Assembly: GCA_019096065.1 (NCBI GenBank)
Contig: JAGUCH010000008.1
Span: 5,461,001 to 5,525,000 of the forward strand
Direction: 5' to 3'
Length of the DNA: 64,000 nucleotides
DNA from: Paracyclopina nana
Taxonomy: Eukaryota > Arthropoda > Copepoda > Cyclopoida > Cyclopettidae
The notes under the pieces were generated by a model, which was not told where the DNA came from, ran no database searches, and saw nothing but the letters and a program-made list of their open reading frames with translations. The translations under genes were made by a program, and so were the position numbers. Below, piece after piece: positions 18,596-54,438 of the stretch. Every line of letters starts with the position of its first letter. Within the stretch, counting starts at the first letter, position 1.

Positions 18596-18599
18596 ACTC
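18596..18599. repeat. Target-site duplication ACTC, left copy
   Basis: The four bases before the left LTR equal the four bases after the right LTR (54439-54442). A 4-bp duplication suits Ty3/gypsy-like integrases. Confidence 0.8.
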
Positions 18600-19525
18600 T
18601 GGTGTGCGACGGTCACACCCTCTGAAGCCTAGGATGGTTAGCATCGGCTTCATGGTCGCGGTACCGTTCGCAGCCTCCGGGTGCTGGCCGGATGTCTACC
18701 CGCCTTGGACCCAAAGCCGCAGCCTCGGTGCTCCAACTCTGGCGAGATACATCACATGGCAAGCTTCAGTGCTGTAGACCTGTGATTGGGCCTCCTACCC
18801 ACGTCCTCAACGGCCTCAACAGCCTCAGACGAGGATGCATAACTGCCCAGGAAACCTCTATACAAGTTATGGTCAAACAAAGTCAAACAGGGTTGTCTTA
18901 TTCACTCAGCTTTTAACACCACACAAATTAATGGCAGCAAATACAAAGAAATAAGTACTGCAGTAAATATTCTTGTGGCCATCTTCTTCATGCCTCAGCA
19001 CACTTTGGAGAACTTTGGTGGGACAATAGCAGGGCAGAGCTCACTCAATGGGCCATGTGCACTTGGTCCATGTCTTGTTTCTCTGAAGTCCCCCATCGAA
19101 CTCCCCGAGTCTTCTCCTTCCTCTCCCCTCGATGCATTGCAGCGAGTTCCATCAGCTTCCATCTGCTTCTCTCCGTTATCATGCAGCTGCAGGTCCTCTC
19201 TATGTAGCAGCTAGCAACTCCTCCACACAATGGCTAGCAACTTCTCCACTCAAGGTCAGGTGAATTGCCATAGGTAAGGCTCAACGCATAGGTAGTAGCA
19301 GCAGCAGCAACAGCAATCAGAGAGTTGGAGGAGATGAAAAGGTGTTTTTTGAGAAAGGAGGTTTTGTGATTTTGAGGTGGTGATGTAGCGGTGAATGGGC
19401 AACCTTCCGGACTTCTGGCGGCTCCACGGGCTCCACGGTTTCCACCGGTTCCACTGGAGGGGTCCAATCAAGTCCTATTCTGGTCGTAACGTGCACCAGA
19501 GACATGATGTACTTATTGCCCATCA
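18600..19525 (-). repeat. 3' LTR of the giant element (926 bp)
   Basis: It matches 53513-54438 at a constant offset of 34,913. It contains a CAG-type trinucleotide tract (about 19291-19316) and four imperfect 9-10 bp units around 19421-19455. The end abutting MAEA can form a hairpin (GGTGTG/CACACC). Short ORFs inside it are present in both copies and are not considered genes. Confidence 0.93.
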
Positions 19526-19537
19526 TTCCCCGGCCCT
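19526..19537 (-). other. Polypurine tract of the giant element
   Basis: On the minus strand the bases directly before the 3' LTR read AGGGCCGGGGAA, which is purine-rich but broken by two C. Position next to the LTR is the main support. Confidence 0.5.
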
Positions 19538-19629
19538 AACTTTTTCAGCTTTTGAAATATTTTTTAAGCTCTAAAAATATAAAAAAGGTGTCATTGATCG
19601 CTTACATCACATTAAGGTTGATACAGTTA

Positions 19630-21516
19630 TTATACTAACGTCGCGCCTCCCAGGCCACTCATTCGCACAGTAAGGCGCTGATTTTGGTCAGCATCTTTCT
19701 TGCGATCTCCTCTATTGTAGCGAAGCCGTGAGCGGGACGTATTAGGTCTCACATAGCCTCCATCATCATAACATCGGCTGCATACTCGCCGCCTTTTCCA
19801 AATCAATATGCCCATACACGTGAATCCCAGTGCTGCAGACAATAGGCTCACCGTCAGGATTATTTCCCAATTATTGAATAAACCTCCAAGTTCATCTTCA
19901 GGGAATTTTGTAAAGAACTTCACCATATCACTTTCCCAAGGAGAGTCCTCGTATCCAGTACTTTGAGTTCCAAGGGAAACCTTACAATTGCTAAGGATCT
20001 GATAAGATCCTGGTTCCAGTACCATCGAGTTCTTGAAGTCATTTAAACAAGTCCTATTAATCATTGCACTTGAGACCAAATTTAAGAACCCTTTATAATT
20101 AGCACATCCCACATCAGTGAGCGTGTTAGTTTTAAGTGGCTCTAATTCACAGGCGTCAAATGGGTCACCCAGAGCTAGCCCTAAAAGTACTTTAGCACAG
20201 TGTTGGACTCCTTCTGTCAAGTCAAAGTCCTTGTTTTCACACACGGTTAAATTATGGTCATGAACGAAGCAATCACTATAGATGGGTATTTCCCGAGACA
20301 CAAACACTAGATCATTTCGACGGGTCAAATACCTATCATGCAGCAAGAATCCGTTTTTGCTTCGTGACACAATATGATATGTGACCTCAGGGGTAGGGTC
20401 CATTTCTTTATACCCAACTATTCCCTGAGTGACAAAATCTCCACTCTGCTCTGTGTTCGCCAAAGGTTCATAAACATTAGTAATGGTGGCCGCATTTCTG
20501 TCACTATTATGCGCCAAAGTTGGTATGCTGAACTGTGTGCCTGCCTGTCCAAAATTTCTGGCAAATTGCACAACTGTGTCAGCATATGACAATACTTGCT
20601 GCAGATCATTTGGTATTAATCCAGACTTCAAAAAGACCTTGCTAAAACCTTTCAGTAGTCGAAAGGCCAAAGAAACTTTCGGTGGAACTCTCAGTGGAGT
20701 GGTATTTGCTATCATGCCATCGGTGAATTTTGTCGATTTACCTGATTCTGCTAGGGCCATCACGGCGTTGTAGGCCTTTTCAAGGAAGCTTTTCCTCCCA
20801 GACAATTCTGATTTGACAAAGTCCTTATGGGTGATGACAAAGTCATTTTGGACACACATCGTTGCCTTCCCATCACTGTGTGGTGCATGGGCTTTAACTG
20901 ACGTCATGGTCTTCGGCCCTTGTCCCACAGTGAAATACCCCGTGATACACGGGTAACCTGCAATTATCTGATTGTCCGGTTTTTTCTCATACCCCACTTG
21001 AGGAAATGTGGTTTTCCCATCCAAGGACATAGGTACCTCATTGACAATCCGAAATTTTACACATAAAGTTACCTTAGTGGCAAGAGGGCTTTCCTTGGCC
21101 GTATAACGTAATAGTTCTAGAAAAACGTCCATGTCTTCATGAGTTTTAGGGGCAAATGGTACAAACCCTTGACGTTTGGAACAAGCTTTGTCGATGGTGT
21201 TAGGGGTACTCTCTTCGCCAACTGCCAACATATTCCCAATATGGACCAAGTCCTCCTTGTCCTTAACTTCTTTTACCACGGTGTCAATATTATTCAGGAC
21301 GCCAATTGTTGATTGCAAAAGGCCACTGTAATCCTTCGTATCTAACACCATAGCCTTTTTCACCATTCTAGGATGATGGACCACTCTAACTGGAACTAGG
21401 GCATGTCCGGAATGGCAAAGTGCCTCATCCAGTACGAACTGAGTATTTGGGTAGTTGGACAGGCCCCAAGTGCCAGATCCCAAAAGGGTGAGAATGAAGA
21501 CCAATTCACACGACAT
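19630..21516 (-). CDS. Envelope-like type I membrane glycoprotein, 628 aa
   Basis: The 628-residue frame starts with a signal peptide (MSCELVFILTLLGSGTWG) and ends with a single membrane segment at about residues 548-573, followed by a basic, 55-residue cytoplasmic tail. The ectodomain has many cysteines and several N-glycosylation sequons (for example ANTT, NRT, NLT). The gene lies just before the 3' LTR, where env is found in retroviruses and errantiviruses. I do not recognise the glycoprotein family, and no obvious furin site or fusion peptide stands out. A TATATAG box lies 34 bp before the ATG, suggesting its own promoter rather than splicing from the LTR. The role in cell entry is inferred from architecture and position only. 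Confidence 0.7.
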   Translation of the reverse strand: MSCELVFILTLLGSGTWGLSNYPNTQFVLDEALCHSGHALVPVRVVHHPRMVKKAMVLDTKDYSGLLQSTIGVLNNIDTVVKEVKDKEDLVHIGNMLAVGEESTPNTIDKACSKRQGFVPFAPKTHEDMDVFLELLRYTAKESPLATKVTLCVKFRIVNEVPMSLDGKTTFPQVGYEKKPDNQIIAGYPCITGYFTVGQGPKTMTSVKAHAPHSDGKATMCVQNDFVITHKDFVKSELSGRKSFLEKAYNAVMALAESGKSTKFTDGMIANTTPLRVPPKVSLAFRLLKGFSKVFLKSGLIPNDLQQVLSYADTVVQFARNFGQAGTQFSIPTLAHNSDRNAATITNVYEPLANTEQSGDFVTQGIVGYKEMDPTPEVTYHIVSRSKNGFLLHDRYLTRRNDLVFVSREIPIYSDCFVHDHNLTVCENKDFDLTEGVQHCAKVLLGLALGDPFDACELEPLKTNTLTDVGCANYKGFLNLVSSAMINRTCLNDFKNSMVLEPGSYQILSNCKVSLGTQSTGYEDSPWESDMVKFFTKFPEDELGGLFNNWEIILTVSLLSAALGFTCMGILIWKRRRVCSRCYDDGGYVRPNTSRSRLRYNRGDRKKDADQNQRLTVRMSGLGGATLV

Positions 21517-21543
21517 CTTACCAGCACAACTTCTGATCAGAAA

Positions 21544-21550
21544 CTATATA
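21544..21550 (-). promoter_or_regulatory. TATA box before the envelope-like gene
   Basis: TATATAG on the minus strand, 34 bp upstream of the ATG at 21516. This would give a very short leader. Candidate internal promoter of the element. Confidence 0.45.
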
Positions 21551-21753: not shown

Positions 21754-23052
21754 TCAGAACTGCCCGACAAATCCATTAATCGCCTCAGTGAATACCTTGA
21801 TGTCGCTGGGGGTCATTTCCTCCATTTTAGTCTGGAGGAGATAGTTCACACGCTCCTTATTCTTATCGACTTTGGAGCGCTTAGCGTGCAATATGTCTGG
21901 TCCATTCGTTCCTGCGCCAAAAGGGCGCCCGCGCACTACATCGGCGTACAGTCTAGGTCCTCGCCTTGGTTTTTGTTGCCAAGACTTCTCCACAAACGCG
22001 GCTAGTTTTTGGGGCCTGGCCCCGGCTGTGTACCTCACGCATTGCGGATACGTTCCAATGGCTCGATCAACAAACTGGGCTACCATGGTAGGCAGGAGTG
22101 CGGTCATATCGATCTTCACGTCCAATTTTCGTGGGGCTTGAGCCACACCATTGTTAAGGCAGGACGGCGGTCCCACATACAGTTGCAAGTACGGTGACGT
22201 CAAATCATGGAACATCCGTGGGTCCCAAAATGATGAGTCCAATGTTGGCATGATCTGAATGCAGCCTCGCTTGGTATAATGTTTGGAGACTACTACAGGG
22301 AGTTGAGCTCCACCCTGTCCACGGATTCCATGAACATAATACCCAACAGCTGTTGGGCTCTGGACGGCAGACCAACTTCTGACATTGGCCAACTTATGGA
22401 CATTCTCGTCATATTCCATCTTGTCAGGCAAATTGTAGACTGGTAGATTGTCTAGCATCGGAAATATAACAAGGAAATCGGGAATCTCCCCACCTTTACT
22501 CACTGGCTCGATAATCAATTCAATGCAGTCAAAGTTTTTCACCTTCAATGGCCTACGAGGCTCGGTCCGTTCATAGGGTTCTCCATTTATCCTAATCGTT
22601 AGGTCAAAAGGCACCTCCTTTCCAACAGTCATGACCTCTTTCGTAGCTATCTTCAACAGGCTTGCATCATAATGCTGCTGTATAGTAGCTCTGGTCCGGC
22701 TCGCCTCCCTCGCATAGGCCTGTAGACCCTCCATGTGGGGAGGCCTGATCAAATCCTCAAATGGCAATGGGTACCCCAAACTGGAGGATACCCTTTCCAA
22801 TGGGACCTCGAGGGATTTCTCTTGGTCCTGGTGGCTAGTCGTCTGATTCTGGGCTTGGTTCTCAATATTGACAGCAGGCATGTTGCGATCCATAACTGGC
22901 TCATCATCCTTTAGGAGCTCACTAACCTCTTGCTCGTTGAACTCTCCAGTCTTATCAGTCTCCATCATAGAGACCAATGCAGATTCTCCTTCCATGGATT
23001 CGGTGATCAGAGACATCCTTAGATTATCGAGGCTATTCAAGCTATCGCTCAT
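21754..23052 (-). CDS. Unknown 432-aa protein of the retroelement 3' module
   Basis: The frame is open from 23130, but a TATAAAAAG box lies inside that upstream part, so I prefer the ATG at 23052 (MSDSLNSLDNLRMSLITES), giving 432 residues. The first 100 residues are acidic and low in order; the rest looks globular, with hydrophobic strands (FDLTIRINGEPYERTEPR, FLVIFPMLDNLPVYNLPDK) and a basic C-terminal region near residues 370-410. There is no signal peptide or membrane segment. I do not recognise it. A structural (matrix- or capsid-like) or regulatory protein are both open possibilities. It is intact, so it is probably under selection in the element. Confidence 0.65.
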   Translation of the reverse strand: MSDSLNSLDNLRMSLITESMEGESALVSMMETDKTGEFNEQEVSELLKDDEPVMDRNMPAVNIENQAQNQTTSHQDQEKSLEVPLERVSSSLGYPLPFEDLIRPPHMEGLQAYAREASRTRATIQQHYDASLLKIATKEVMTVGKEVPFDLTIRINGEPYERTEPRRPLKVKNFDCIELIIEPVSKGGEIPDFLVIFPMLDNLPVYNLPDKMEYDENVHKLANVRSWSAVQSPTAVGYYVHGIRGQGGAQLPVVVSKHYTKRGCIQIMPTLDSSFWDPRMFHDLTSPYLQLYVGPPSCLNNGVAQAPRKLDVKIDMTALLPTMVAQFVDRAIGTYPQCVRYTAGARPQKLAAFVEKSWQQKPRRGPRLYADVVRGRPFGAGTNGPDILHAKRSKVDKNKERVNYLLQTKMEEMTPSDIKVFTEAINGFVGQF

Positions 23053-23083
23053 TTCCAGACTGTTGCTGTAAGGCCGTAACCTG

Positions 23084-23094
23084 CCCTTTTTATA
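23084..23094 (-). promoter_or_regulatory. TATA box before the 432-aa gene
   Basis: TATAAAAAGGG on the minus strand, about 40 bp before the ATG at 23052. It lies inside an in-frame upstream extension, which argues for the downstream start. Confidence 0.5.
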
Positions 23095-23222
23095 CGCATC
23101 TTTACAGATATGCCCCACACTCTCGGGCATTTAAATGCGTGGGTTGTCCCTTTTTAAAAAACCCAAGGTCATTTTTTGTCTAGGTAAAACAGAACAAGGT
23201 AACAGGACTTATACCACTTCCT

Positions 23223-23417: not shown

Positions 23418-24467
23418 ATGGTCATTTTAGCCTGGGTTTCTCTAACTCCAGAGGGCAGCTCTGCAGAGGCTCCCACGGAGGTTCCAATCCAGTCATCAAC
23501 AGTGGATCCTGCTTTTGTGGATTCTCAAAACACGGGCCCAGTAGGTCCTAATGTTGCTATTCCTGAGAGTGGCATTTCTGAAGCTGAGGGTGGACCTGGA
23601 TTTGACCCAGCTCCTGTCGATCCCTTTGAAGTGGAGGTGTTTGACCCCCGAGATTTAATGCCAGCGGTACCAAATGGTTATCGTCCCATTGCCCCTCAGA
23701 GGGACTGGATCGATGAGGTTTTCAATTATCACCGATACGGTGTAATGGGATGGATCGGTCTTGGAGCCTCCATTGGGATGGCTTTGGTAAGTTCAACCTT
23801 ATGGCTAGTTTTGCAACTATGGCCAAATTTTATTTACCACCTCTTCCTTACAGATTTTGCTTGGCATGTTGGTGTACTTCTGCGTGTGGACATCACGATG
23901 GTGCCGTAGGTTCGTGGCCACGTTTCGAGCTATTCGTACGGAGTCAGCGGCTGCCAGTGGAGCCATGCAAATGCTTCCAACAAAGGCCCCATCTGAGCAT
24001 GCAGCGGTATTTCACTGCTGTACACCAGAGGTCCGAGCTTTGCCACCAGCCCCGACTATGCGTGACCCTGATGTCCAGTCGCTCCAAATGGCAATGGCTG
24101 CCATGGACCCCTATGGGACACTACGCCGGAACCCCAGCATCATGTCAGGGTTGGCCCACATCTATGACGTCCCTAATCCCAAGGGCTGGGTAAGGACCTA
24201 TCAATTTATGAACTGTAAACAGGTTACTCATGTACTCTTTTCCATGCACCTTTTCAGGTACCTGTAACTGAAGGGTGCGGACCGCGGACTTTGAAGAGAC
24301 GATCTCGCCGGGCTCGAGCCCGAGATAACCGTCGCTTGGATTCGGCAGCAGGGTCCATTCCGGACAAAGACGAAGTCAATGAGGCTGAACCTCTCTCAAT
24401 CGCAGATGAGGACCAGGATTCAGCTGGATCAAAGGCTTCCCAAGACGTCAACAGTGATGCCAACTAA
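23418..24467 (+). CDS. Antisense spliced membrane protein of the retroelement, 304 aa (3 exons)
   Basis: Exons 23418-23786, 23854-24189 and 24258-24467 are 123, 112 and 70 codons, all phase 0, with clean gtaagt/gtaagg donors and ttacag/ttttcag acceptors. Without splicing the frames close. The first 107 residues are Pro/Glu/Asp-rich; a single membrane span runs across the first junction (GVMGWIGLGASIGMAL, continuing into the next exon with ILLGMLVYFCVW). The cytoplasmic part has a basic cluster (RRSRRARARDNRR) and an acidic end. AATAAA lies at 24769-24774. It is transcribed against gag-pol and env. I know no homologue. The introns and the intact frame suggest a genuine gene; capture from a host or viral source is possible. 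Confidence 0.68.
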
Positions 24468-24768: not shown

Positions 24769-24774
24769 AATAAA
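24769..24774 (+). terminator. Poly(A) signal after the 304-aa gene
   Basis: AATAAA on the plus strand, 302 bp after the stop codon at 24467. Confidence 0.5.
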
Positions 24775-24949: not shown

Positions 24950-25489
24950 ATGGCGGGCTTCCTTCACGGTTTGTTCGTAAGTTTTTATTTCGAATCGAAT
25001 CCGTTGAATCCTTTCGTAAAACTGTATCTTTTCATTGGGAATGTAGAATCCTTCAACCACAACAGTGGCCCCCGCCACTGAGGCTCCCGTAGGGGCGCCC
25101 CCCGCGGCCGAGTCCGCGGCGGGGTGGCCCCAGCCACCTGCGGCCCCGCCCGCAGCCCCTTTGGGCAACGAGGAGTGCCCTCCCTGCCCCGTTCAGGGCT
25201 TCGTAAGTGCATTATTCGTTATCTATTTGGTCAAAGCTCGAAAGCTCGACTTTTTCTCGTATTGCAGGCCGAAGAGATCCTCTAGGGCGTGGCCCTGAAC
25301 GTGGCAGGGGCGGCCACCTATTATTTGGTGGCCCTGCCCGCCCTTGCCTGGGTCCACCGGGCCAGGCCAAGGGGCCTTTACCGGCTCGTAAGCCGGCTCT
25401 GGGACGAGCCCCAGGACCTGCCCAGGGTCTCGGCCTGGGTCCTCCACCTGTTTGTGGGGGAGGAGGACCCTCTCGAGGGAGTCGTCTAG
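24950..25489 (+). CDS. GC-rich antisense small membrane protein, about 128 aa (3 exons)
   Basis: Proposed exons: 24950-24976 (MAGFLHGLF), 25047-25202 and 25286-25489, all phase 0. Exon 2 is Pro/Ala-rich; exon 3 begins with a hydrophobic span (GVALNVAGAATYYLVALPAL) followed by an Arg-rich tail. Codon third positions are strongly G/C, unlike every neighbour. The third exon has two possible acceptors: gcag at 25267, which leads to a stop after five codons, and ctctag at 25285, which keeps the frame open. AATAAA is at 25653-25658. The layout (Pro-rich outside, one span, basic inside) repeats that of the gene at 23418. The nine-codon first exon is the weakest part of the model. Function unknown. 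Confidence 0.5.
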
Positions 25490-25652: not shown

Positions 25653-25658
25653 AATAAA
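25653..25658 (+). terminator. Poly(A) signal after the GC-rich gene
   Basis: AATAAA on the plus strand 164 bp after the stop. A possible 3' UTR intron runs from 25489 to 25551 (gtaagt to tttgcag). Confidence 0.5.
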
Positions 25659-25902
25659 AGTCCACGTGCATAGTACTTTTTGTGTCTACTGTGTTTGTCG
25701 CAACTCATTTCGCGTTTACCTCAGTGGATAGCTCAGCCTCATCTCGCATAGGAAGCCCAGCAACTTTTCAGTCGAGTTCAGCAGTCCATTAACTTAGTCG
25801 AGCACTTTTAAGTCCAATTGTTTACATTACATGGCAAAACGGACCATAGACCATATCTCAGGTGTTGGGAATTGCATTTAAATTGCATAATTACTCATTA
25901 GC

Positions 25903-25926
25903 GGCCCAAATCCACAGATTTGGGCC
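25903..25926. other. Perfect hairpin
   Basis: GGCCCAAATC, loop CACA, GATTTGGGCC: a 10-bp perfect stem in a noncoding part of the element. It could fold in RNA of either strand. Confidence 0.6.
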
Positions 25927-25939
25927 TGTAAATAGGCTA

Positions 25940-27072
25940 GCATTCCAGCTCGACCTTGACGGCCTTGACACTGCAAACGATGCTTCAATGTTCAAGAAAA
26001 GCGTTTACTATAGCCCTGCATTCCAGCTCGGGCTTGGTGCATCACTATTATTTGAGTGTCTGCGAATACTACTGGCTGAGCTTTGGTGCTTATGGGGTAC
26101 CAATGCTAATTAGCAGCATTTTTTCCATTGACATTCCGGCTCGGCCTTGATGCAAGGGAAATTGTCCCGCATTCCAGCTAGGCCTTGAAGGTGGCTTGGG
26201 ATTCGTATCATCCCTACAGGACTGGAAAACCGGCCGTATGTCATTGCACATAGCAAAAGCAAGCTCAAGCACTAGGCAATGGCACAATAATTCTTTTCCA
26301 TATTGGGCTAAAAAACGTGTATTTTTCATTTTCTCACATGTCAGTCTACAATTTGTGCTGACCTAGCTTGTTTTGCTAATGCTGTGTTTAGCGTAACTCA
26401 AATTCTCCACTAAAAAAGAGGGGAGTCATGTGGCTGCTGCAAGACAGCCATATTTCAGCACTTATTTTATTTAACAATATGCCTAATCTTAGTGCACTTT
26501 GAACCTTTTCGTCTGTTGGTCCATCTGGCGATCATTAGCGGTATCATTATAACATTAGTCATTTTCATTCTCTTGACTTTTATGCAACGTTTTATTTTAT
26601 TCCTTGTACCCGCATAATAAGTCCCGGAATTTGAGTCACCACTCGAGCCGAGTATGGCCATTTTTGAGTTTAGTTAGGTTCAAAAACCTTCCCAGGTGAA
26701 TTGTAGGTGCACCGGCGGTTCCAATCTTCATTGTTCGTTTTAGCCTTGGGCAAAACGTTTTTGGTTCGTGGTTAGGCGCATGGTGGCGCCACCATTCTAC
26801 ATCTCCCAGCGAAGCCGCTCAAACTGGATTTTTCTAGTGTGGGAGCGTCTCTGGATTTTTGTTCCATAACAGCTTTTTGCCCCCCTTGGAGTCGGGTATC
26901 TGTTCGACAAAAGCTGGCTCAGCGTCTTTGCGCAATGCAACTCACATTTCAGTCTATCTTGCTCAAATGTTTTTTGTCTAGCCATTTCGAACAGACTCAT
27001 AGATTATGTTTTATCTGTTATCACTGACTTGCATAGCTATTATAGCTCTGCATTCCAGCTCGGTCTTGATGC
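25940..27072 (+). repeat. Five dispersed copies of a 23-bp motif
   Basis: Copies at 25940-25962, 26018-26040, 26131-26153, 26169-26191 and 27050-27072 follow the pattern GCATTCCAGCTCGGCCTTGATGC with one to four changes each. Copies two and five also share their left flank (tagcnctgc). Spacing is irregular, so this is not a simple tandem array. Confidence 0.7.
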
Positions 27073-27345
27073 GTGCATCAAGTTCGGGTGCTCATAACCG
27101 AAGTTAATTTAAAAGATTGAGGTTATCAGCACCGATCTTTTCAGCTAATTTCGGTTAGCACTAATAATAATATATGAAGCAGGTTTTGCGACATTTATGT
27201 GCTAGCGTTCAGATTTATAGGTTCACGGCAGTTTGCCATTTCCAGTTTTATCTAGAAATTTTGTTTACAATACTTTCTCAGAGCACGAGGGCGCTCAAAT
27301 TTTGTGAAATTTTGTGGGGCGCAGGCTGCATTTCCTGCGGCTACG

Positions 27346-27528
27346 TATATATACTCCCCCCCTCCACAATTTTCTGCATTTTGTGGGAACTGCAGTGAGC
27401 AGTCACACAAAATTCAGGTAAGTATGTTTTCGAATCTTAAACTATAAAAGATCTGAGCGGCTAGGCTAATTTTATTCAATTTTATTTAAACGATGGCGCC
27501 CGTGGGCACCATCCATGATATCAATAAA
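27346..27528 (+). promoter_or_regulatory. Possible short transcription unit (TATA, donor, poly(A) signal)
   Basis: TATATATA at 27346-27353, a consensus donor CAG/gtaagt at 27417-27418, a possible acceptor ending at about 27464 and AATAAA at 27523-27528 lie in order on the plus strand. The only frame, from ATG at 27493, has about 31 codons. A noncoding RNA is as likely as a peptide. Confidence 0.3.
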
Positions 27529-27807
27529 CTAAATCGTGCCATAGTAGGAAGAGAAACGCGGCACATATTGAACTTTATTTTCATTTAGAATTACAATTTC
27601 GTTTGTCACACATAGACTGTTGGGCAAATGAAATGTAAAATGGTATTTTATGGGGAAACACTTGTTCACCTCCAAGATACCCCAGTTGTATCCAAAGCTG
27701 ATGAGTTCACCAGCATATAGGTTTTTTGTTGTCTTTAGTAGCCACAAAGGAGCGGCCCATTCCAATAGAGAGTGGGTCCCCACATTTTGTTGAGGCAAGA
27801 AGACCAT
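27529..27807 (-). CDS. Small unknown ORF, 92 aa
   Basis: An uninterrupted 92-codon frame starts MVFLPQQNVGTHSLLEWAAP. Its middle (YAGELISFGYNWG) recalls the end of a SET domain, but only faintly. Two AATAAA signals on the same strand lie 43-58 bp beyond the stop (27471-27476, 27481-27486), which favours a real gene. No TATA box is assigned. It may be an exon of a larger gene. Confidence 0.35.
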   Translation of the reverse strand: MVFLPQQNVGTHSLLEWAAPLWLLKTTKNLYAGELISFGYNWGILEVNKCFPIKYHFTFHLPNSLCVTNEIVILNENKVQYVPRFSSYYGTI

Positions 27808-28792
27808 AGTTTGGGCTGATTATTCGCCCAGGCACAAAGCTGTACTTAGTATTTCAAGATCCCTTCTTTAGGGAGATGAATCCCATTTTTGTACAGATTT
27901 CCATGTTCCATCCTACTCAAAGTCCGGAGGCGCCACGACCAGGCCTGCAGTTCGAACCAGGTCATGGTCGAGACACTCTGATATTATAGGCACAGTAGTC
28001 GCTACACCCGAGTTTTTATTTCGTGGCATGTACTACTATGATATTGCTATCATTTCCATGACTGAACAGTTTTACTTCATAGTCATTTTTTATCAATGCT
28101 CATTCCTCATGTCGGAGGGTGGGCATTTTTTCTAAGTTCTTCTGAGATTTATTCAAGATCTTTCCAAGATTTTATATATATAATGTGCCAACACAAGTCT
28201 CCTCACGTATTGTGAGGTTTTATTGTGTCCCACTTGCACAGTGCCTTGTGCCAACTATTGCTGTACTTAAAGTACGTGTGTCCCAGTAACTATCAACTCA
28301 CGCGGGGCGTGGAGTGGATAGTGGTTCCATTTGGACATAGCTCAGTGGAGCTTTAACCATAGTTTTCAAAACATAACTATTCAGATGGGACATTTGCCCC
28401 TCTGGTATTACGCCCATCTGCAACTTCCCTCTTGCATGGCGTGTTTATAGTACTTTACTTTAAATAACAGTCAGACTTTATCCAGGCCAATCGGCCCATT
28501 GAAGCCTTAGTAGGGCTAAGTTTTGATTAGTGCGAAGCCCTAAGGTTGAAGTAATATAATGTCCTTGTCCTCTACGGAGGGGTAATATAATGCGTAGAGT
28601 TTATATCCATGTTCCTTGCTTTCGTACAAAGCATTTTAACTTTATTAAAAACTATTGTAAGCCTATCCCCCTTCTATAGTAGTATGGGGCATGCACGCTT
28701 AAGTACTTAAGTACCGAGCAAAGCTCAATTTGTATCGGTATTCGTCAGGAAACAGGACAAATGTATTTGTCCCATCAGTATTGTACGAGTTA
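27808..28792. other. Noncoding part of the retroelement 3' module
   Basis: No coding frame recognised. Contains a 14-bp palindrome CTTAAGTACTTAAG at 28698-28711 and two nearby copies of gtaatataatg around 28550-28590. Confidence 0.45.
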
Positions 28793-29068: not shown

Positions 29069-29251
29069 TTCTATGATCTTTTTGGCAAGCGGACAAATTC
29101 AAGTCCGCAATTGACATTTTGCATTAACATACTTTTGGGTGCGCTTGATTGGTAAAACGGTGCGCCCATATTGGACTGACAAAGTAAAGGTAGTGACCCC
29201 ATAAAATATGGGCACTACGATTACCGTCATCACGTCCTTTCTTACGAATCT

Positions 29252-45200: not shown

Positions 45201-46167
45201 CTATTTCTTGAGCCTCTTCTTTAGACTCAGCTCCGGTCAGCAGATCGTCCATGTAGGTGTCCTGGATCAAGGCTCTGGCTCCCAGAGGGTGGGACGTCAA
45301 GTATTTTTTGGCATGTTCCTTCACACCAAACAAAGCCATGCATGGTGAAGAGGCAGCCCCAAAGACCAACGAGATTGATTCATAGTGCTCTCCTCTCCAT
45401 ATGAACCGAAAGTAAGGCCGGTCTGCTTCCATCAATGTGAATTGGAGGTACATCTTTTTGACGTCAGCTCCCACCATGATTGGCTTTTCTCTTATCCTCA
45501 GCAGTACATCTAAAAGGTCATTTAGGAGGTTGGGTCCGGGCAGCATAGCGTCATTTAGGCTTTTTCCTTGAAAGCGTCGTGCGCAATCATACACGACTCT
45601 TACGGGCGTGCTGGGTTTGTCTAATCTTGATACCGTTAGACCTGGTAAGTAAAATCCTCTGTTCAGGTTGTCTACCGATGGATCTAGCTTTCGCACGAAA
45701 CCGTTCTCCAAACTGCTCCTCACTTCTTTGTCAGCAGCCTCAAAGGCTGCCGGCATCTTTTCTTGTAGCCTTTTTTCGAACTTAATGGCCATTCTTGATG
45801 CTTCCTCGAGATTGCATTCTAGGGCTGGCTCGCCTGGTTTCCACATCACCGGCAACTTATATCGTTTGTTGGGGAGTTGCGTGATTCCTTTCTCCAGAAT
45901 TTCCAGTGCATATTTTTCTTCACTTGTAGTCGGCTTGGATTCTTCGTTTTCTTCCTCCAACCCTATTCCAATGGCTTCCATTGACCACAGGTTTTCAAGG
46001 AGCTTCATCGGGTCCTCCGATGGGGGTCCCAGCACCGAGGCTAGCGCTGTGATCATTTCGTTGTCCTCATTTGTGATCGTCGAGCTTGCTATTGTAGTGA
46101 AGTAACATGTTTTTATGCTTTCTTCTTCTTTTTCGCATTGTTTTTCTTTAGTATGCTCCCCCCCCAT
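42202..46167 (-). CDS. pol: BEL/Pao Pol polyprotein, 1321 aa
   Basis: Frame from MGGEHTKEKQCEKEEESIKT. Reverse transcriptase spans about residues 180-360 with an aspartate in GADVKKMYLQF and a YMDD box. RNase H starts near 475 (IIFSDASEMAYA). An integrase zinc module (HAETDHERG, CITCQKKM) is followed by a core with SIDFAGPF, IRSDNGPG and GIAESGVRLWKKF, and a DUF5641-like tail. The start overlaps the gag 3' end by 55 bp in another frame at a run of eight G (46158-46165). Expression may need a -1 shift at that run or internal initiation; an indel in the run is the simple alternative. Domains are otherwise complete. Confidence 0.9.
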   Translation of the reverse strand: MGGEHTKEKQCEKEEESIKTCYFTTIASSTITNEDNEMITALASVLGPPSEDPMKLLENLWSMEAIGIGLEEENEESKPTTSEEKYALEILEKGITQLPNKRYKLPVMWKPGEPALECNLEEASRMAIKFEKRLQEKMPAAFEAADKEVRSSLENGFVRKLDPSVDNLNRGFYLPGLTVSRLDKPSTPVRVVYDCARRFQGKSLNDAMLPGPNLLNDLLDVLLRIREKPIMVGADVKKMYLQFTLMEADRPYFRFIWRGEHYESISLVFGAASSPCMALFGVKEHAKKYLTSHPLGARALIQDTYMDDLLTGAESKEEAQEIVKQCNFIMTEASLPLMKWVSNRSIPLQHLEPELIKASSAAEGEKTLGMVLDLQADVFKFVVPDWSPYLNNPVTLRSFASAAAKIYDPLGFLDPLTLGPRLAMQQVCALKSVMNIDWDTPLESLEHEEMSFVIKAWKRSLESLAQLKEVSFPRCIRSSKASRMTVIIFSDASEMAYACVAYLRVEYPDQPTQCNLLLSKKRLAPLSERRSIPDLEMMGATLGARLSRRIKRLEWKLDTLHFFTDSTCVLSWLAKSGRAWQTFIGNRVSHIHRMTKGYVWRHVRSKDNPADLPTKGMTVEELNASNLWRHGPEWLVGPEEEFPPPQVFIETEEVKAVASQSFRTVLATSTVEAEASEGATKLSEAMLRVIPLWKSEQNKEWPTFIENLKPNYRKLVRVMGWLILYASKLRAFVKKHQLLPRPTEYREWQEEEAPLDGPMVRTAESRIFLRAQLAYYEDELKCLIQRGCFPEKSKLSGLRIVFGQHGELRTMGRTSELAIPGLARARLILPPTDLAEAILTSLHAETDHERGYKSLLNRARTRYWPLQCNSLAKKVIKDCITCQKKMRLPQVPQMAPLPKDAITYKDLLPFKHVSIDFAGPFPVRLGRSNLKRHVLITVCRDTHALHAEVTESMKTEHVHSALQRMVALRGVPYSIRSDNGPGLPSTMSTIWGDERHEDLEEVLKEIDWNYLRKWSLDVGIKSWTFSPPYGPHFNGIAESGVRLWKKFYYKLYRHYTFTLDEFSTLTARAASLVNSRPIGEVRGEIITPSHFLCLGPPGELLPVAKPPQIDRAAVRFGLIDKFLQDLWAEWLPQVLFQIHRLPKWRQFREELKEGQMVLVVDAKERRCDWRYAKVMRLIRGVDGVARRAEVQVAPPGKAKHLLSRPISNLVPLELFEEDFELNKTSPPAAEIELQAEKDIITTPEQIEKRKRKAEEKAKKWVESKHAIKPMKTTSSVKKNYRETIKDKVIPLQVQTRSQRRKEEQKNSRLAMVTQLRTLQIQ

Positions 46168-49100
46168 GCGACACCCTCGGCTGCCGAGGATGTGGCATTG
46201 GTTGGCGATTCACCATATAAAACCACGTTGCCAAGCTTAGTTTCAATGACATAAGGTGATCCCGGTTTGTGATGGCGAATGTCTGAAATCCAATCGTGGT
46301 TTTGAATTCCCAACAGCATGTCTATTTTGTCATTGGGGAGTTGTGGAAAATCAACATTTTGCAGTGATGGGAATTTTTCTTTGAGATGGGTTATTGGAGG
46401 GAGTTGCACGTGATCTATGATTTTGTCCATCGTATGAACAGTGATCAATTGTTGATCCGGAGAAATCGTTGACTGGATAATGACATTTGCCCTTTGCGAT
46501 GGCATGAGTTTTTTGCTATTTAATGACTGGATCATTTGGGGCGAATTTGTTCCTTTCAGATTCAGTGCTTTGAAAACTCGATTTGTTATGAAATTAGTCT
46601 CACACGCGGTATCCATCATGACATTGATGGTTACAAATTCTCCATTGAGCGGGTTAATTATGTTAGCCGGAGCAACAAAATAAGAGAGCATTGATGTTTT
46701 ATTAGTCACTAAGGCTACATTGGTAGGGACTGTCCCTGTAGCTGCTTCTTCTTTCGAGGATTTCACTAAGTTCTTCAAAAAGTTGATAAGGTCCTTTGTT
46801 GTGACGTCATCTTGCTCTTCGGTTTTTTCTTGCGCTCTTTCCGCCACTGCTGCAGTGGCGGTTACCACATTTTCCGGGCAAATCAACACGTTGTGCTTGT
46901 TGGATTTGCATATACGACAAGTCCATTTTTTGTCGCAGGCTGGGACCCGGTGTTGTCCTAGCAAGCAGCGAAAACATGCTCTGGATTGGACAGCCACTGT
47001 TTTTCTGTCACTCACGGAAAGGGTCTGAAATTTTGGGCATTTGAGAAGTGAATGGACTTCATAGCATGCTGCACACTTTTTGAACCATTTCAGTTTGTTA
47101 TCGACCGCGGAAGCCGCGGTCGTCAAGGCTGTAACAGCTTCAGTTTCACTGTCATACTCAGAGGAGTCTGTTTCGGCTGCCACCATCAAAGCCGTTTTTT
47201 TGGATTTGGTCATTCCATCTCCATTAAAGAGCTGACTGAGTTGGGCCTCGCACCAGTTGTCGAATATGGTGAAAGTGAATCCTTTAGGGCTGAGGATCTG
47301 ACAGTAGTGGTTGAAGGCATCTTTGGCTCTGGTCGTGAATTGCAATGCGTTCCTGGTGCGACCGTGATGACTGGCTAAATTGGTGCCTGGTATCTGTTGC
47401 AGTTGGACTGCCAGCTGACCTACTGCGGCTTGAGCTTGTGAAATGGACTCAATGTCGGTGTTGTCTATCACTCCAAGTTCTTTCAAAGAGTTGTAGGCGT
47501 AGTCAATTTGTCTTTCTACATTGCCATACATGTGCTCGAGTTTTTGCAATGCGATTTGGTAGTTTTCTGCAGTGCGTGGTAAGTAGCTGTACGACCTACT
47601 GGCCGGGCCGTTTGCAGTTTTCTCGCACAGTCGTCCGAACTTCTCCGCTACTGATATGTTGGGGTTGTCATGGACTAGGAACTTGAAGTTGTGCTTGAAG
47701 GAAAAATATTCTGATGGAACTGTTCCAGAGAAACTCGGCAAGTCCAACGGCTTCAGCTTGATATTTTGATAGAGATTTGGGGCGCTTCTGCCATATCCCT
47801 GGCTCCGATTGTGATAGTATTCATCAGGATTCCATTCTCCCTCTTCGTCTTGATTGTCGTGTCCATGGGGATCATTATGGGGGTCATCACCTCCAGGAGG
47901 TGGAGGAGGAGGGGGCCGCCCTCCGGGGGGTCCAGGTGGGCCTCTGCGATTGTGCCCCGAATAGTGGTTGTTGTCATCTCGTCCTCCATTTCCCCGTCCT
48001 CGTCCAGTTGATCCTCGTCCTCGGGGTCTGCCGTTTCCCCCCCGTCTAGGCGGAGATTCTCCCCCGGGCGGTCCTCCACCCGACGCTACTCTGAATTGTG
48101 AAACAGCTCTCTGCTTAGAGGCTGCAGAGTAGTAGAAGGAAGGATCTGCTGGTTGGTCGAAGAAGTTATCACTTTGGCCGATTGGCTCCCCAGGCAGATT
48201 CCAGGCGTCTTGGGGATGAGTTGGACGATTTGGCCTCTGGGCAGGTTGTTGGTCGGGTTCCTCGGACGAGTCGTCTGAGCTTGACCACCTGTGGTCCGGG
48301 TTGTCTAACCTCTCATCGAAGAAAGGCTGCGGCACAATCAATTCGGGCCTTTTTTTATTGTATTGATTGGCAGAGGAGGTGGCATGTTGAGCCAAGGCTC
48401 TAGCTTCGTCCTCGTTCTTCCTCTGATCAGCGGTGGTGCACACTTGGGAGGAGGCCTTCCTCAATTCTGCGACCCCCCTCAACTTCTGCTGCAGAAGAGA
48501 GGCCAGATCGCGGACAAAATCGTGCGGTTTTTGTGATTTTATTTCTCGATGCAAGTTTGCGGCCATTGCTTTGATGGTGATCAGGAGTTCCTTGTACTGA
48601 GCTGCGGCTTGAGGACTGTCCTCAAGTCTTGAATTGTTTTGGCTACTCAGTAGTCGTTGACGATAAGCTGCAGCCTCTCTCATTGCTTCTTCGATTTGCA
48701 AGCCCAGGGGCTTGTCCAATGACTGCACGAATTGTGAGAGTGACAGCTGCGGGTGAGCAGCGAGAAACGCTTCTCTTTCTTGAGCTGCCGCGTTAAAATC
48801 CTCTATCAGTCTCCCTGACCTTGACGAGTCCAAGACGGGTTGGTTTATGGCCTCAACCATCGTTCTCATTGCCGCTCTCAATTTCATTCTGAGGTCCATG
48901 TAGTGGTTGTCTAGCTCTGATAGGTGCACTTCTTGGGCAGTCATCCTCAGAGCCTGGCTCTGCTGTGACTGTACAGTGGAGGTGGAGGACGATCTGGATT
49001 CATTGCTTCTCTCCTCTGGTGCTCCGCCCTCAACTCGCGACATGGAAGTGGCCGAGGTTAAAGCGGAGGTTGCGGCCAGCATGGCATTAGCGGTGGCAAG

Positions 49101-50576
49101 AGCAGATCTACGTCCTCGATCGTCGCCAGAGCCGGAGGACCCTTGTGAGATGGCATCGACATGTTTCGGGATGTGACCCATCGACCCGCTGCGGGTCAAC
49201 GGCGGCATGGTGAATTCCGGCAGCTGGATTGCTGAGCTTGAGGTGGTTTGGGTTGGTGCTGGAGGCCGAAAGCTGAAAGATTGCAGCTGTTGCCTCTGAA
49301 GCTCCATGCGTTGGCGTTGCAATTCTTCTTGCTCTTGTTGAAGGCGAGCACGAGCCTCCTTTTCTTGAGCTTCCATTCTCTGCCTCGCTTCTTTTTCCTG
49401 GGCTTCCAACTGCTTGAGCTTCATGATTTCCCGAGACATTTGTTGCGTCAATGAGACCTGTGTATTTTGACTTTGCTCGGTCATCATCTTGACCCTGACT
49501 TCATCCAGATTGGCCACGTAGTATTCCAATGACGACACTTCTTGTTCAATGCCGGCCAATAATTGTCTGGAGGCTGCTGAAGGAAGAGTGTGGGCATATT
49601 GACGGGCGGCCTCCCTTAGCTTGTCAATGATGAGTGCGCCATTGTCTCCCAAATCCCTGAGATTGTTGGGTCGATAGGAGGAGTCCTTAATGGCGACAAT
49701 GGCTTCCCTAGCGAACTTTTCCGCATTTTGCTTGCAATTCTCCAGCATGACTTCCTTTGCTCGGGATTGTTCTCTTACTGAAGTGAGGTTGACCTCCGAG
49801 TGCCTCGACACCGATGGCGGATTGTTAAGTGAGCTAGCTCCAGATGACACTGACGCTGAACTCCCAGGCCTTGACGTTCCCCCTTGATCGGGAGCTCCAG
49901 TTCCCGGTGATAAGTAGAGGGTATTGTTGGCGGCTAAATTTGCTCGCGATTCTCTGTCCTCATCCCCCGCTGCTGCAGCGGAGGAGGAAAGGTGGAGAGA
50001 TGAAGCCATAGTTTGAGGCCGATCCACTGTCAGGTCAGGTCGAGTCTTGCTCCCCGAGTCGATTAACTGACCTAGGAAGCTGCGTATAAAGGTGTTAGGA
50101 GAAGTCCTGGGAGGTCTCTGCTCTTCGACGGCCAGAGACTGAGGTGGGTCAATGAGCCTTTCTACGCTTTGATTTGGGTCCTTTGACCGAGTTGCTCCAA
50201 AGGGTAACGGTATTAGAGTGGCCGATTGAGTAGGAGCTGCTCCTGAGCTGCTCGCTGCCGAAGTATTGTTGTCAACACCAGTAGGGACCTCGATGTCTGT
50301 CACATTGATGTCTTCCACTCGGGGCGACTTGACCAATCTTTTAGCTGCTTTTCTGCCACTGACAGTCAGTGCGGAAAATGTAGGAACAATAGACTCGCGT
50401 TTTCCCTTAGTCAATCTGTCGTGGAGCTGCTCCACCGAGATTTGAGCTGATTCCGCGACTTGTTGTGCTATTTCTTCGTCGGTTGGCGGCGGAATATTAC
50501 GCCGTCGGCTGCTGAATCTTGACGGTTGACTTCTAGCTGTGTCAACCTCTTTCTTCGTCTTCTTGGGTTTTTTCAT
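46113..50576 (-). CDS. gag: BEL/Pao Gag with protease, about 1487 aa
   Basis: The frame is open from the LTR, but the ATG at 50576 (MKKPKKTKKEVDTARSQPSR) lies after the primer site and is preferred. The first 900 residues are Ser/Gln-rich with a Glu/Arg coiled coil (QEKEARQRMEAQEKEARARL). A Pro/Gly-rich section is followed by a DUF1759-like capsid region (LDLPSFSGTVPSEYFSFKHN), two zinc-knuckle-like clusters (CFRCLLGQHRVPAC and CRICKSNKHNVLIC) and a retropepsin-like segment with the motif MMDTACETNF. The C-terminus is a lysine run beyond the G8 tract. Placing the protease at the end of gag, before the frame change, would let it be made without pol. Confidence 0.87.
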   Translation of the reverse strand: MKKPKKTKKEVDTARSQPSRFSSRRRNIPPPTDEEIAQQVAESAQISVEQLHDRLTKGKRESIVPTFSALTVSGRKAAKRLVKSPRVEDINVTDIEVPTGVDNNTSAASSSGAAPTQSATLIPLPFGATRSKDPNQSVERLIDPPQSLAVEEQRPPRTSPNTFIRSFLGQLIDSGSKTRPDLTVDRPQTMASSLHLSSSAAAAGDEDRESRANLAANNTLYLSPGTGAPDQGGTSRPGSSASVSSGASSLNNPPSVSRHSEVNLTSVREQSRAKEVMLENCKQNAEKFAREAIVAIKDSSYRPNNLRDLGDNGALIIDKLREAARQYAHTLPSAASRQLLAGIEQEVSSLEYYVANLDEVRVKMMTEQSQNTQVSLTQQMSREIMKLKQLEAQEKEARQRMEAQEKEARARLQQEQEELQRQRMELQRQQLQSFSFRPPAPTQTTSSSAIQLPEFTMPPLTRSGSMGHIPKHVDAISQGSSGSGDDRGRRSALATANAMLAATSALTSATSMSRVEGGAPEERSNESRSSSTSTVQSQQSQALRMTAQEVHLSELDNHYMDLRMKLRAAMRTMVEAINQPVLDSSRSGRLIEDFNAAAQEREAFLAAHPQLSLSQFVQSLDKPLGLQIEEAMREAAAYRQRLLSSQNNSRLEDSPQAAAQYKELLITIKAMAANLHREIKSQKPHDFVRDLASLLQQKLRGVAELRKASSQVCTTADQRKNEDEARALAQHATSSANQYNKKRPELIVPQPFFDERLDNPDHRWSSSDDSSEEPDQQPAQRPNRPTHPQDAWNLPGEPIGQSDNFFDQPADPSFYYSAASKQRAVSQFRVASGGGPPGGESPPRRGGNGRPRGRGSTGRGRGNGGRDDNNHYSGHNRRGPPGPPGGRPPPPPPPGGDDPHNDPHGHDNQDEEGEWNPDEYYHNRSQGYGRSAPNLYQNIKLKPLDLPSFSGTVPSEYFSFKHNFKFLVHDNPNISVAEKFGRLCEKTANGPASRSYSYLPRTAENYQIALQKLEHMYGNVERQIDYAYNSLKELGVIDNTDIESISQAQAAVGQLAVQLQQIPGTNLASHHGRTRNALQFTTRAKDAFNHYCQILSPKGFTFTIFDNWCEAQLSQLFNGDGMTKSKKTALMVAAETDSSEYDSETEAVTALTTAASAVDNKLKWFKKCAACYEVHSLLKCPKFQTLSVSDRKTVAVQSRACFRCLLGQHRVPACDKKWTCRICKSNKHNVLICPENVVTATAAVAERAQEKTEEQDDVTTKDLINFLKNLVKSSKEEAATGTVPTNVALVTNKTSMLSYFVAPANIINPLNGEFVTINVMMDTACETNFITNRVFKALNLKGTNSPQMIQSLNSKKLMPSQRANVIIQSTISPDQQLITVHTMDKIIDHVQLPPITHLKEKFPSLQNVDFPQLPNDKIDMLLGIQNHDWISDIRHHKPGSPYVIETKLGNVVLYGESPTNATSSAAEGVAWGGSILKKNNAKKKKKA

Positions 50577-50605
50577 TGATCTGTCCAAAGGTCCCAGGTC
50601 ATCCA

Positions 50606-50625
50606 GATCCCGGGTCGCGGCACCA
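50606..50625 (-). other. Primer binding site of the BEL/Pao element
   Basis: Two bases inside the 5' LTR end, the minus strand reads TGGTGCCGCGACCCGGGATC. It begins with TGG, as required to pair with a tRNA CCA end. I cannot name the tRNA. Confidence 0.65.
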
Positions 50626-50627
50626 TT

Positions 50628-50971
50628 TGATGAGTCTGGACAGAATAACCCAAGCTTTTGGAGGCACGAAAGATCCACCTTGGAAGATGAACCCGGATCG
50701 GGCCGAGACTAAGTCCAACGGCTCTTAAGAAAGAGCACTGAGCTGGATAGAACGAGCCAGCTTACTGCGACTACACTGAAGGCCTCACAAAGGCCAGGAT
50801 TGGCCTTTGCAAGACGAGGAGAAATAAATCTCAAATAAAAGACATGTAGTCAGTGATATATCGCAAACAGAACTGAATTGTTTATTCTCTTTTTACCGCG
50901 AACGCAACATCTTTATACTAATACACGAAACCTTTCCATTTGATGCTTCTCTGGTAAGTTTAGCTTCCACA
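50628..50971 (-). repeat. 5' LTR of the BEL/Pao element (344 bp)
   Basis: Partner of 38524-38867 with no difference noticed. The outer gag frame runs 79 nt into it before a stop, giving a spurious hybrid C-terminus. Confidence 0.95.
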
Positions 50972-52272
50972 CTTGTGCTAAGTACACTAAAGAGCTTCTG
51001 CATCTCAATCATTTTCTTTCCTGAGGATAAGTTTGGGTCAACCATCTGAAGGATTACTCGTCGGGCTGATTCCACATCCTTAATCTCATCAGTGTTAATT
51101 AACTTAAGCCTCTCAGAAATTGGAGCAGACTCATCGTAGATAACGTCAGTTTCCGGCACCATTCTTTCCTTCGTCGCAGCATCTACTATGCTTAAGGTTC
51201 TTTCTAAATTCTTACTGAAAATAGACTCTACTTTTGCCCCAACCATGTGTTTAGCCGTGATTTGTGCAGAGGCAATAATTTTATTTGCCGTGCTCGCATC
51301 ATGCATTTTCGTGTAGTAAGCTTTTACCGTGTTCAATTCCTGAATATTCAATTGGCCTCCTGACAACATCTTTTGTACCATTCTATGTACAACTTCCATT
51401 GGGGGAAGCGTGATTGAATTAGTCAAGTTATGCAAATCACGGGGGTTCATTTTAGTCGAGGTCAGGACTGACTTATTTTGGCCATCCAGGTCAGCTCCTG
51501 TAGTGAACTCATGATGGTTAGTCCCAGGTGGACTTGCTATCGAGGACATATCGGGAACGGCATTACTCGTCTCATTATTAGGAAAATGTACACTCTGACC
51601 GGGGTTTTTCCGTGGTTTTAGGTCAAGCGGTTCCCTTAGGAAATAATCACTTTGTAGCCCGTAAAGCCTCGCTACAATAGCAAATCCATCTCCAAATGTC
51701 CGTATCTTTTGCCAATTCCTTGATATCAATGTTGCAACCATTTCAAGCGTTCCTGGCATTGAACCAGTCAGGAAGCTACCATCAACTTCTTGCGTCCGCT
51801 GTGTAGTTTTCTTTTCCTCAATACGAGTTAGGAACTCATCCAGGCCAAAGCAAATGCATAACAGGGCACATGTAGTGCTTGTTAATGAAATAGGATCTAG
51901 CGCGTCGATGTATTTAACCACATTTACAACTTGGCCTACTGGGTCCTTAAGGGGCATAGTTCCGATGATTGTCTTAATATGGTCATCCAAAGATCTAATC
52001 GGCTCCCTAGGGACAAGTACTATTTGAGTCCTATCCCATACAGCTGCTACTTGTGCTTGAGTTACTGTGACAAACTCTAAAGCTTCAGGGTAAGCAACGT
52101 GTGGTATAAACCTTTGCAACTCAGCTCTGCTATTCCCATTCGGGGCGCATTGGGATAAGTACCCTTGAAAAGTGTCCTCATTAATCCCAAGATGGTTTAA
52201 CAAACGTTCCTTGACTTTCGTAACTTCCTCAGCCAGAGTAGGTCCAGCGATCCTAGAATCCTGATTAGCCAT
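50972..52272 (-). pseudogene. gag: N-terminal half of gag of the giant element
   Basis: Starts MANQDSRIAGPTLAEEVTKV at 52272 and runs 433 codons plus two bases to the BEL insertion point. The content is mostly helical with no recognisable domain, as is usual for retroelement matrix/capsid regions. It continues in frame at 38523. Truncated in this copy; the truncated product would end in LTR-encoded residues. Confidence 0.85.
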
Positions 52273-53490: not shown

Positions 53491-53509
53491 AATCCCTCCG
53501 GGGCCTCCA
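53491..53509 (-). other. Primer binding site of the giant element (tRNA-Thr-like)
   Basis: Three bases inside the 5' LTR end, the minus strand reads TGGAGGCCCCGGAGGGATT. The first ten bases are complementary to a tRNA ending GGGGCCT-CCA, which fits animal tRNA-Thr acceptor stems; beyond that the match is partial. Confidence 0.55.
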
Positions 53510-53512
53510 AAA

Positions 53513-54438
53513 TGGTGTGCGACGGTCACACCCTCTGAAGCCTAGGATGGTTAGCATCGGCTTCATGGTCGCGGTACCGTTCGCAGCCTCCGGGTGCTGG
53601 CCGGATGTCTACCCGCCTTGGACCCAAAGCCGCAGCCTCGGTGCTCCAACTCTGGCGAGATACATCACATGGCAAGCTTCAGTGCTGTAGACCTGTGATT
53701 GGGCCTCCTACCCACGTCCTCAACGGCCTCAACAGCCTCAGACGAGGATGCATAACTGCCCAGGAAACCTCTATACAAGTTATGGTCAAACAAAGTCAAA
53801 CAGGGTTGTCTTATTCACTCAGCTTTTAACACCACACAAATTAATGGCAGCAAATACAAAGAAATAAGTACTGCAGTAAATATTCTTGTGGCCATCTTCT
53901 TCATGCCTCAGCACACTTTGGAGAACTTTGGTGGGACAATAGCAGGGCAGAGCTCACTCAATGGGCCATGTGCACTTGGTCCATGTCTTGTTTCTCTGAA
54001 GTCCCCCATCGAACTCCCCGAGTCTTCTCCTTCCTCTCCCCTCGATGCATTGCAGCGAGTTCCATCAGCTTCCATCTGCTTCTCTCCGTTATCATGCAGC
54101 TGCAGGTCCTCTCTATGTAGCAGCTAGCAACTCCTCCACACAATGGCTAGCAACTTCTCCACTCAAGGTCAGGTGAATTGCCATAGGTAAGGCTCAACGC
54201 ATAGGTAGTAGCAGCAGCAGCAACAGCAATCAGAGAGTTGGAGGAGATGAAAAGGTGTTTTTTGAGAAAGGAGGTTTTGTGATTTTGAGGTGGTGATGTA
54301 GCGGTGAATGGGCAACCTTCCGGACTTCTGGCAGCTCCACGGGCTCCACGGTTTCCACCGGTTCCACTGGAGGGGTCCAATCAAGTCCTATTCTGGTCGT
54401 AACGTGCACCAGAGACATGATGTACTTATTGCCCATCA
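53513..54438 (-). repeat. 5' LTR of the giant element (926 bp)
   Basis: Partner of 18600-19525; one substitution noticed (54333 A for 19420 G). Followed by ACTC, the second copy of the target duplication. Confidence 0.93.

Follow-up and report, generated by a model that had tools for sequence, protein, structure and literature searches.

A stretch of 64,000 nucleotides from the copepod Paracyclopina nana (contig JAGUCH010000008.1, positions 5,461,001 to 5,525,000; hereafter the window) carries at positions 18600-54438 a retroelement bounded by long terminal repeats (LTRs), with genes on both strands. The locus raises the question of what kind of element this is, and whether its opposite-strand genes are a lasting part of it. 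We consider it likely that this element belongs to a lineage, so far undescribed, of giant Ty3/gypsy-type retroelements that bear an env and resemble endogenous retroviruses. An initial annotation, made from the letters of this stretch, had proposed an undescribed giant and possibly virus-like lineage. The lineage does look undescribed and does have an env-like gene and an ambisense module; it may be infectious.

Architecture of the element

The two LTRs are as first described, 926 bp each with one mismatch between them and ACTC at both flanks; they have TG..CA ends, and the target duplication is 4 bp. The whole span is 35,839 bp and includes a nested element. Subtracting the latter together with its 4-bp duplication leaves 23,386 bp, in agreement with the proposed size of about 23.4 kb. 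On the element strand, which is the minus strand of the window, the order is LTR, gag, pol, a 3.6-kb spacer, genes B and A in the opposite direction, X, the env-like gene and LTR. A gag, a 2667-aa pol and two further minus-strand genes had been predicted and were all found, gag as two open reading frame (ORF) pieces. The genes had also been called intact apart from the nested insertion, which is true of pol, X and the env-like gene of the window copy but not of gag. The two spliced plus-strand genes were recovered as models A and B, with one correction: exon 3 of B, when entered at the first 3' splice site, meets an in-frame TAG. The features are as follows.

18600-19525, minus strand: 3' LTR, from the LTR pair comparison and its genome matches
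19526-19536, minus strand: candidate purine-rich tract preceding the 3' LTR, judged by eye
19630-21516, minus strand: env-like gene, 628 aa; the N-terminus is hydrophobic, a single C-terminal membrane helix is predicted (residues 552-570), and there are four N-glycosylation motifs
21754-23130, minus strand: gene X, 458 aa, no assigned function; from its ORF, genome matches and family alignment
23418-23786, 23854-24189 and 24258-24467, plus strand: exons of spliced gene A, 304 aa, one predicted membrane helix; AATAAA at 24769-24774
24950-24976, 25047-25202 and 25268 or 25286 to 25486, plus strand: exons of spliced gene B; TAG at 25283-25285, AATAAA at 25653-25658
25660-29251, no strand: spacer with no recognised gene
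29252-37255, minus strand: pol, 2667 aa; a predicted pair of membrane helices at the N-terminus, protease, reverse transcriptase (RT), RNase H, integrase, long C-terminal extension
37255-38522, minus strand: last piece of gag, from ORF and translation; Cys/His motifs that we take to be zinc-knuckle-like, no Pfam match
38523-50971, minus strand: BEL/Pao element nested in gag and not counted with the main element; its 345-bp LTRs are identical and its duplication is CTTG
50972-52272, minus strand: first piece of gag, from ORF and translation, interrupted by the nested element; no Pfam match
53493-53509, minus strand: candidate primer binding site, three bases inside from the 5' LTR; read from the sequence
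53513-54438, minus strand: 5' LTR

A search for tRNA-shaped patterns gave no tRNA matching the candidate primer binding site.

Copies in the genome

We searched the 92-Mb assembly (10 contigs). The counts are lower bounds, with 40 of 127 candidates scored for the LTR, 70 of 121 for env, 92 of 109 for X, 95 of 372 for RT and 40 of 73 for the DNA of A plus B. The LTR had at least 41 matches. We compared 17 LTR pairs, that is, the window pair and 16 further pairs of the same family (F1), to which the LTR data apply. A 4-bp duplication flanks 16 of the 17 (15 of the 16 further pairs and the window), as fits a Ty3/gypsy element; in the pair L065/L066 the duplication is missing and one LTR is short. 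Substitutions are absent from 13 of the 17 pairs, although one of the 13 has a 2-base gap; three of the 16 further pairs show 1, 3 and 3 substitutions. The span is 23,093-23,564 bp in 12 pairs and 27.7-35.8 kb in the other five, which include the window. These data bear out a young, multi-copy element of constant size.

The ambisense module is part of that constancy. All 12 compact copies have env and X matches, and 10 of them are among the 40 scored A plus B DNA matches, every one of which reaches from base 1 to at least base 2228 of the 2240-base query. The two remaining compact copies, read directly, match at 92.5% over bases 1-2236 and at 85% over bases 186-2240 of this query; in the latter, exon 1 of A still matches as protein (69%) where the first 185 bases give no DNA match. 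The initial annotation had asked for full-length copies with both LTRs and the same module, and had counted copies lacking it as evidence against its reading; the module is present in 12 of 12. That the element was misassembled, or is a composite formed by a single chance insertion, is therefore scarcely credible, and we rejected it: the window copy does contain a nested element, but twelve compact copies elsewhere have equal length and content, each with a 4-bp duplication.

Reading frames are open in many copies as well. The env search gave at least 72 matches, of which 40 are nearly full length (619 or more of the 628 residues, 88-100% identical); an internal stop is absent from 37 of the 40. 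X has at least 96 matches; 37 extend over 447 or more of its 458 residues at 89-100% identity, with 36 free of stops. In several F1 copies (C7:175235, C8:5823465, C3:691207, C9:460736 and C4:3727553) the X match breaks and shifts frame near residue 404, which is either a shared break of one subfamily or a recurrent assembly error. Across the genome, where 150 of 658 RT candidates were scored, many RT matches lie in long open frames, so that several LTR families look recently active.

Antisense genes A and B

Genes A and B lie on the plus strand, between pol and the 3' LTR. The introns of A are 67 and 68 nt long, neither divisible by three, and GT/AG was kept at both in all 10 F1 copies extracted (11 tried); the splice dinucleotides of B were kept in four of four. 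Exons 1 and 2 of A measure 369 and 336 nt in F1, 381 and 336 in F2, and 366 and 333 in F3, F2 and F3 being two of four related families described below. Gene A appears to exceed chance because its frame is free of stops between F1 and F3 (0 stops, against 13-20 in the other five frames) and because exon 1 has 57 genome matches. The proportions of synonymous and nonsynonymous differences in that comparison were 0.78 and 0.28; proportions were used since synonymous divergence of A is saturated between F1 and F3 or F2.

In gene B, exon 1 is nine codons long, Pro and Ala abound in exon 2, and exon 3 encodes a membrane-like stretch (hydropathy 1.57 in F1, just below the 1.6 cut-off used, and 2.14 in F5) followed by a conserved Arg-rich tail. 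Exon 3 has 79 genome matches, 77 of them free of stops. The ratio of nonsynonymous to synonymous substitution rates (dN/dS) was 0.15-0.36 for A in eight open comparisons with the window copy, and 0.12-0.19 for B in three. The set comprised nine F1 loci, each compared with the window copy and hence not independent of one another; frameshifts led us to leave out A of L035 as well as X of both L074 and L075, and L034 gave no module. By these ratios, A and B are under purifying selection. It is thus quite unlikely that the antisense unit acts as RNA, regulating or silencing the sense RNA, with its proteins irrelevant: dN/dS is far below 1 and nearly all B exon-3 matches are open. Antisense regulatory RNA has been discussed for LTR elements in the accessible part of one source (PMC7264820), and here the antisense transcripts would stay clear of gag, pol, X and env as long as they end at their poly(A) signals.

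The TAG in gene B recurs in other families. From the first 3' splice site, six codons, the last of them TAG, are read in the F1, F2 and F3 copies and four in F5, after which the conserved frame resumes in phase. The open frame of exon 3 is 67, 68, 69 or 77 aa long in 74 of 79 matches, as expected for a stop immediately before it. Because of this recurrence, the TAG is probably a feature rather than damage. A TAG can itself terminate an intron, and the simplest readings would be a second 3' splice site or read-through.

The genes stay with their elements. Each of the 57 A matches has a listed X, env or RT match no more than 12 kb away, and so have 78 of the 79 B matches, the last B being at 12.4 kb; among the matches listed no copy of A or B was seen away from elements in this genome. 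A and B have introns and poly(A) signals like those of host genes, so capture from the host by one ancestral element, with the genes now mere passengers, is conceivable. We regard it as unlikely, given the want of A or B matches off the elements in this genome, the intron places common to diverged families and the purifying selection. A scan of the stretch 23418-23909 gave no Pfam match.

Related families

The RT matches, at least 96, group at about 97-100% (F1), 93% (F3), 87-89% (F2, full-length matches), 66-69% (F4) and 51% (F5) identity. Among the matches listed, F3 occupies one place (on C9) and F4 and F5 seven each; one place was read per family F2-F5. The gene order behind pol is much alike in these families, and X and env are common to all of them. 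Env identity to the window copy is 64% in F3, 44% in F2, 28% in F4 and 23% (part) in F5; for X the values are 60 and 77% (two pieces) in F3, 41% in F2, 24% in F4 and 21% (part) in F5. Degradation marks the F3 copy, in which X and env are split and exon 3 of A has a stop; in the F5 copy X lies in two frames and the start of A could not be placed.

Gene A of F1 clearly resembles that of F3 (7.6e-86) and of F2 (1e-7); the comparison of F3 with F4 gave 0.003. Intron 1 interrupts the predicted membrane helix in all five families. Gene A has counterparts in all four related families; those of F4 and F5 show little sequence likeness and are recognised by place, direction, helix and intron. Gene B was found in three related families, and within 12 kb of seven of seven F5 RT matches. 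Its exon 3 in F1 resembles that of F5 (5e-14) and of F2 (4e-23), where two other frames are likewise free of stops.

The env-like protein and X

The N-terminal hydrophobicity, C-terminal membrane helix and cysteines of the env-like protein are conserved in diverged families. In a search of 5.8 billion proteins, the 7,997 best candidates included no relative at E 0.001; there was no Pfam match to E 0.1, with chance-level ones alone to E 1. The homology to Env proteins that marks errantiviruses was accordingly not seen in Pfam or the protein search. For env and X together, nothing convincing appeared in the PDB by sequence or profile, none in viral contigs, and no Pfam match exceeded its cut-off. 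Single-sequence structure prediction gave mean pLDDT values (the confidence score of the prediction) of 31.5 for env and 33.1 for X.

Such results leave room for a giant retrotransposon that stays inside the cell, its env-like protein, X, A and B serving export, assembly or the countering of silencing without an extracellular stage. The missing kinship to known viral glycoproteins speaks for this, and spread within cells would also fit the large number of near-identical copies in one genome. The membrane topology and cysteines kept across diverged families point the other way, as do the 37 stop-free frames among 40 near-full-length env matches. We take a purely intracellular life to be possible but rather doubt it.

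Pol and the spacer

Protease, RT, RNase H and integrase follow one another in pol in the order of Ty3/gypsy elements (Metaviridae), with only RVT_1 above its Pfam cut-off (48.4 bits); rve scored 30.5 (cut-off 32.6), and the RNase H and protease models stayed below theirs. DSG, YVDD and integrase-like motifs were found, which we take to mark the protease, RT and integrase. Membership in Ty3/gypsy is thus indicated by RT and the domain order. The best match shows about 24% identity across 43% of the RT-integrase region, and pol matches range from 21 to 25% among candidate proteins of 1467-4667 aa, a range outside which shorter pol proteins of ordinary size fell. In a 22-row tree, several rows of which are weak and none of which represents a named clade, the branch formed by F1 and F2 is 3.28 long, where the median end branch measures 0.5.

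In both F1 and F2, the pol start overlaps the gag stop as TAATG, and hydropathy shows two hydrophobic stretches near the pol N-terminus (70-119) before the protease motif. About 600 residues without a Pfam match separate protease from RT.

In the spacer, positions 25940-27069 hold five same-direction copies of a GCATTCCAGCTCGGNCTTGA-like 20-nt motif, against a mean of 0.03 matches in 30 single-base shuffles. The window and L074 have five copies each, L075 and L076 have four, and F3 has five looser ones; none was found in the F2, F4 and F5 pieces examined. The array is perhaps protein-binding or insulator-like. On the plus strand, 27340-27425 contains a TATATATA-like stretch and a splice-donor-like CAG/GTAAGTATG, possibly belonging to a third antisense transcript. 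Rfam gave no match at gathering score anywhere in the window.

Proposed expression and weight of the evidence

For the favored reading, a giant env-bearing lineage akin to endogenous retroviruses, we envisage the following. The LTR would drive gag and pol, with pol reached through termination and re-initiation at the TAATG. X and env would be expressed either through splicing to a subgenomic RNA or from a promoter lying between X and A. Genes A and B would have their own promoters, be transcribed antisense from the integrated copy and be spliced by the host. Since the whole genome must pass through one sense RNA, an intron-bearing gene is expected to keep its introns on the opposite strand only; those of A and B would persist because the reverse-transcribed RNA is sense, in which they go unrecognised. 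The products may be small single-pass membrane proteins that aid an enveloped particle or alter the cell surface, and the TAG of B, as second 3' splice site or read-through stop, could yield short and membrane-bound forms.

Several findings weigh against this picture. The label "env" reflects topology and place, without a detectable relative. Transcription and splicing of A and B are predictions from gene models. The likeness of gene A between F1 and F4 is not significant (0.21), that between F1 and F5 is weak (1.7e-4) and centred on the hydrophobic helix, and B was not found within 12 kb of any of the seven F4 RT matches. Of the 12 compact copies, just 3 have an unbroken X match. A pol frame of at least 2,646 aa is open in 13 of the 38 F1 RT matches that span the whole query at 97% or more, among the matches listed, and one of these 13 has a TAG listed. 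Although the LTRs are young, many copies are thus damaged or the assembly holds small errors.

A bolder reading would make the families a deep lineage of ambisense animal retroviruses, with X as a fourth sense gene, a host-spliced antisense block of membrane proteins, the B TAG as a switch between short and membrane-anchored forms, and a pol with its own membrane anchor. We offer it tentatively and do not expect all of it to hold, having rated it lower because so few compact copies have X in one piece.

Comparison with known elements

Errantiviruses such as Drosophila gypsy are much smaller than the window element. They are likewise LTR elements with gag, pol and an env downstream of the integrase, but have three genes on one strand (PMC7879559). 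For all other systems below, statements refer to the accessible part of each source.

Size and opposite-strand genes had been thought to go beyond what is known, and this is not borne out as put. Ogre of plants (up to 25 kb) and Burro of planarians (over 30 kb) are giant Ty3/gypsy elements (PMC6431247), and Grande, RIRE2 and Retand carry antisense genes between pol and the 3' LTR (PMC7264820, PMC11963269). Burro is an invertebrate, Ty3/gypsy-like element with extra coding capacity and env homology; unlike here, its env belongs to a single huge polyprotein, in frame with gag before it and pol after it, and that part of the source mentions no spliced antisense genes (PMC6431247). Ogre owes its size mainly to long LTRs and has 1-2 extra ORFs (PMC6431247). 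Grande, RIRE2 and Retand share the antisense genes and a long region between pol and the 3' LTR, but are plant elements. The sense ORFs behind pol in Retand have no predicted membrane regions, unlike here, and the known antisense products of these plant elements are nuclear or have a TRP28 domain, the word "intron" being absent from the accessible text (PMC7264820, PMC11963269).

Retroviral antisense genes are also known: deltaretrovirus hbz, whose RNA is spliced, and HIV-1 asp, whose product has predicted membrane helices; hbz is driven from the 3' LTR, whereas A and B are internal and overlap no sense gene (PMC10186651). Bdelloid rotifers, which are invertebrates too, have LTR elements such as TelKA and Vesta that carry env-like and further ORFs, but none of their ORF3 types behind pol is described, in the part available, as a spliced antisense gene (PMC5408684). 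Troyka, an LTR retroelement near gypsy, was considered and rejected, as it has 3-bp duplications and CG..CG ends in place of 4 bp and TG..CA (PMC12440569).

In their accessible parts, none of the descriptions of Burro, Ogre, Grande, Retand, hbz and the bdelloid elements has a sense env together with antisense genes that are spliced and encode membrane proteins. A literature search, outside which most subscription journals lay, found no paper on such an element. Because giant gypsy size and antisense genes behind pol are each already known, what appears new is their combination in one animal lineage. The lineage seems to exploit the opposite strand for two protein genes conserved over long divergence, in an animal. 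Its five families and many near-identical copies offer a test bed for the expression and retention of antisense genes in an LTR element, and further for the form of orphan envelope-like proteins and for the packaging and copying of a 23-kb RNA.

Nested element and neighbouring gene

The nested BEL/Pao element is 12.4 kb long, and its Peptidase_A17, DUF1759 and DUF5641 matches exceed their Pfam cut-offs. Its third long ORF (38789-42892, 1367 aa) has no Pfam match above cut-off and no clear membrane helix, just one weak hydrophobic stretch.

In the stretch 17595-18600, the element that hosts it starts 85 bp past the stop codon of a MAEA-like gene with a CTLH domain. A search for the nematode spliced leader SL1 gave no match, nor did its controls. 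The nearest proteins to the MAEA-like gene are 78-84% identical, followed among others by the EukProt protein Tk06994 (66%), whose prefix we presume to stand for Tigriopus, a copepod; its named NCBI matches are mostly from arthropods, plus some other invertebrates. The insertion may impinge on the 3' end of this gene.

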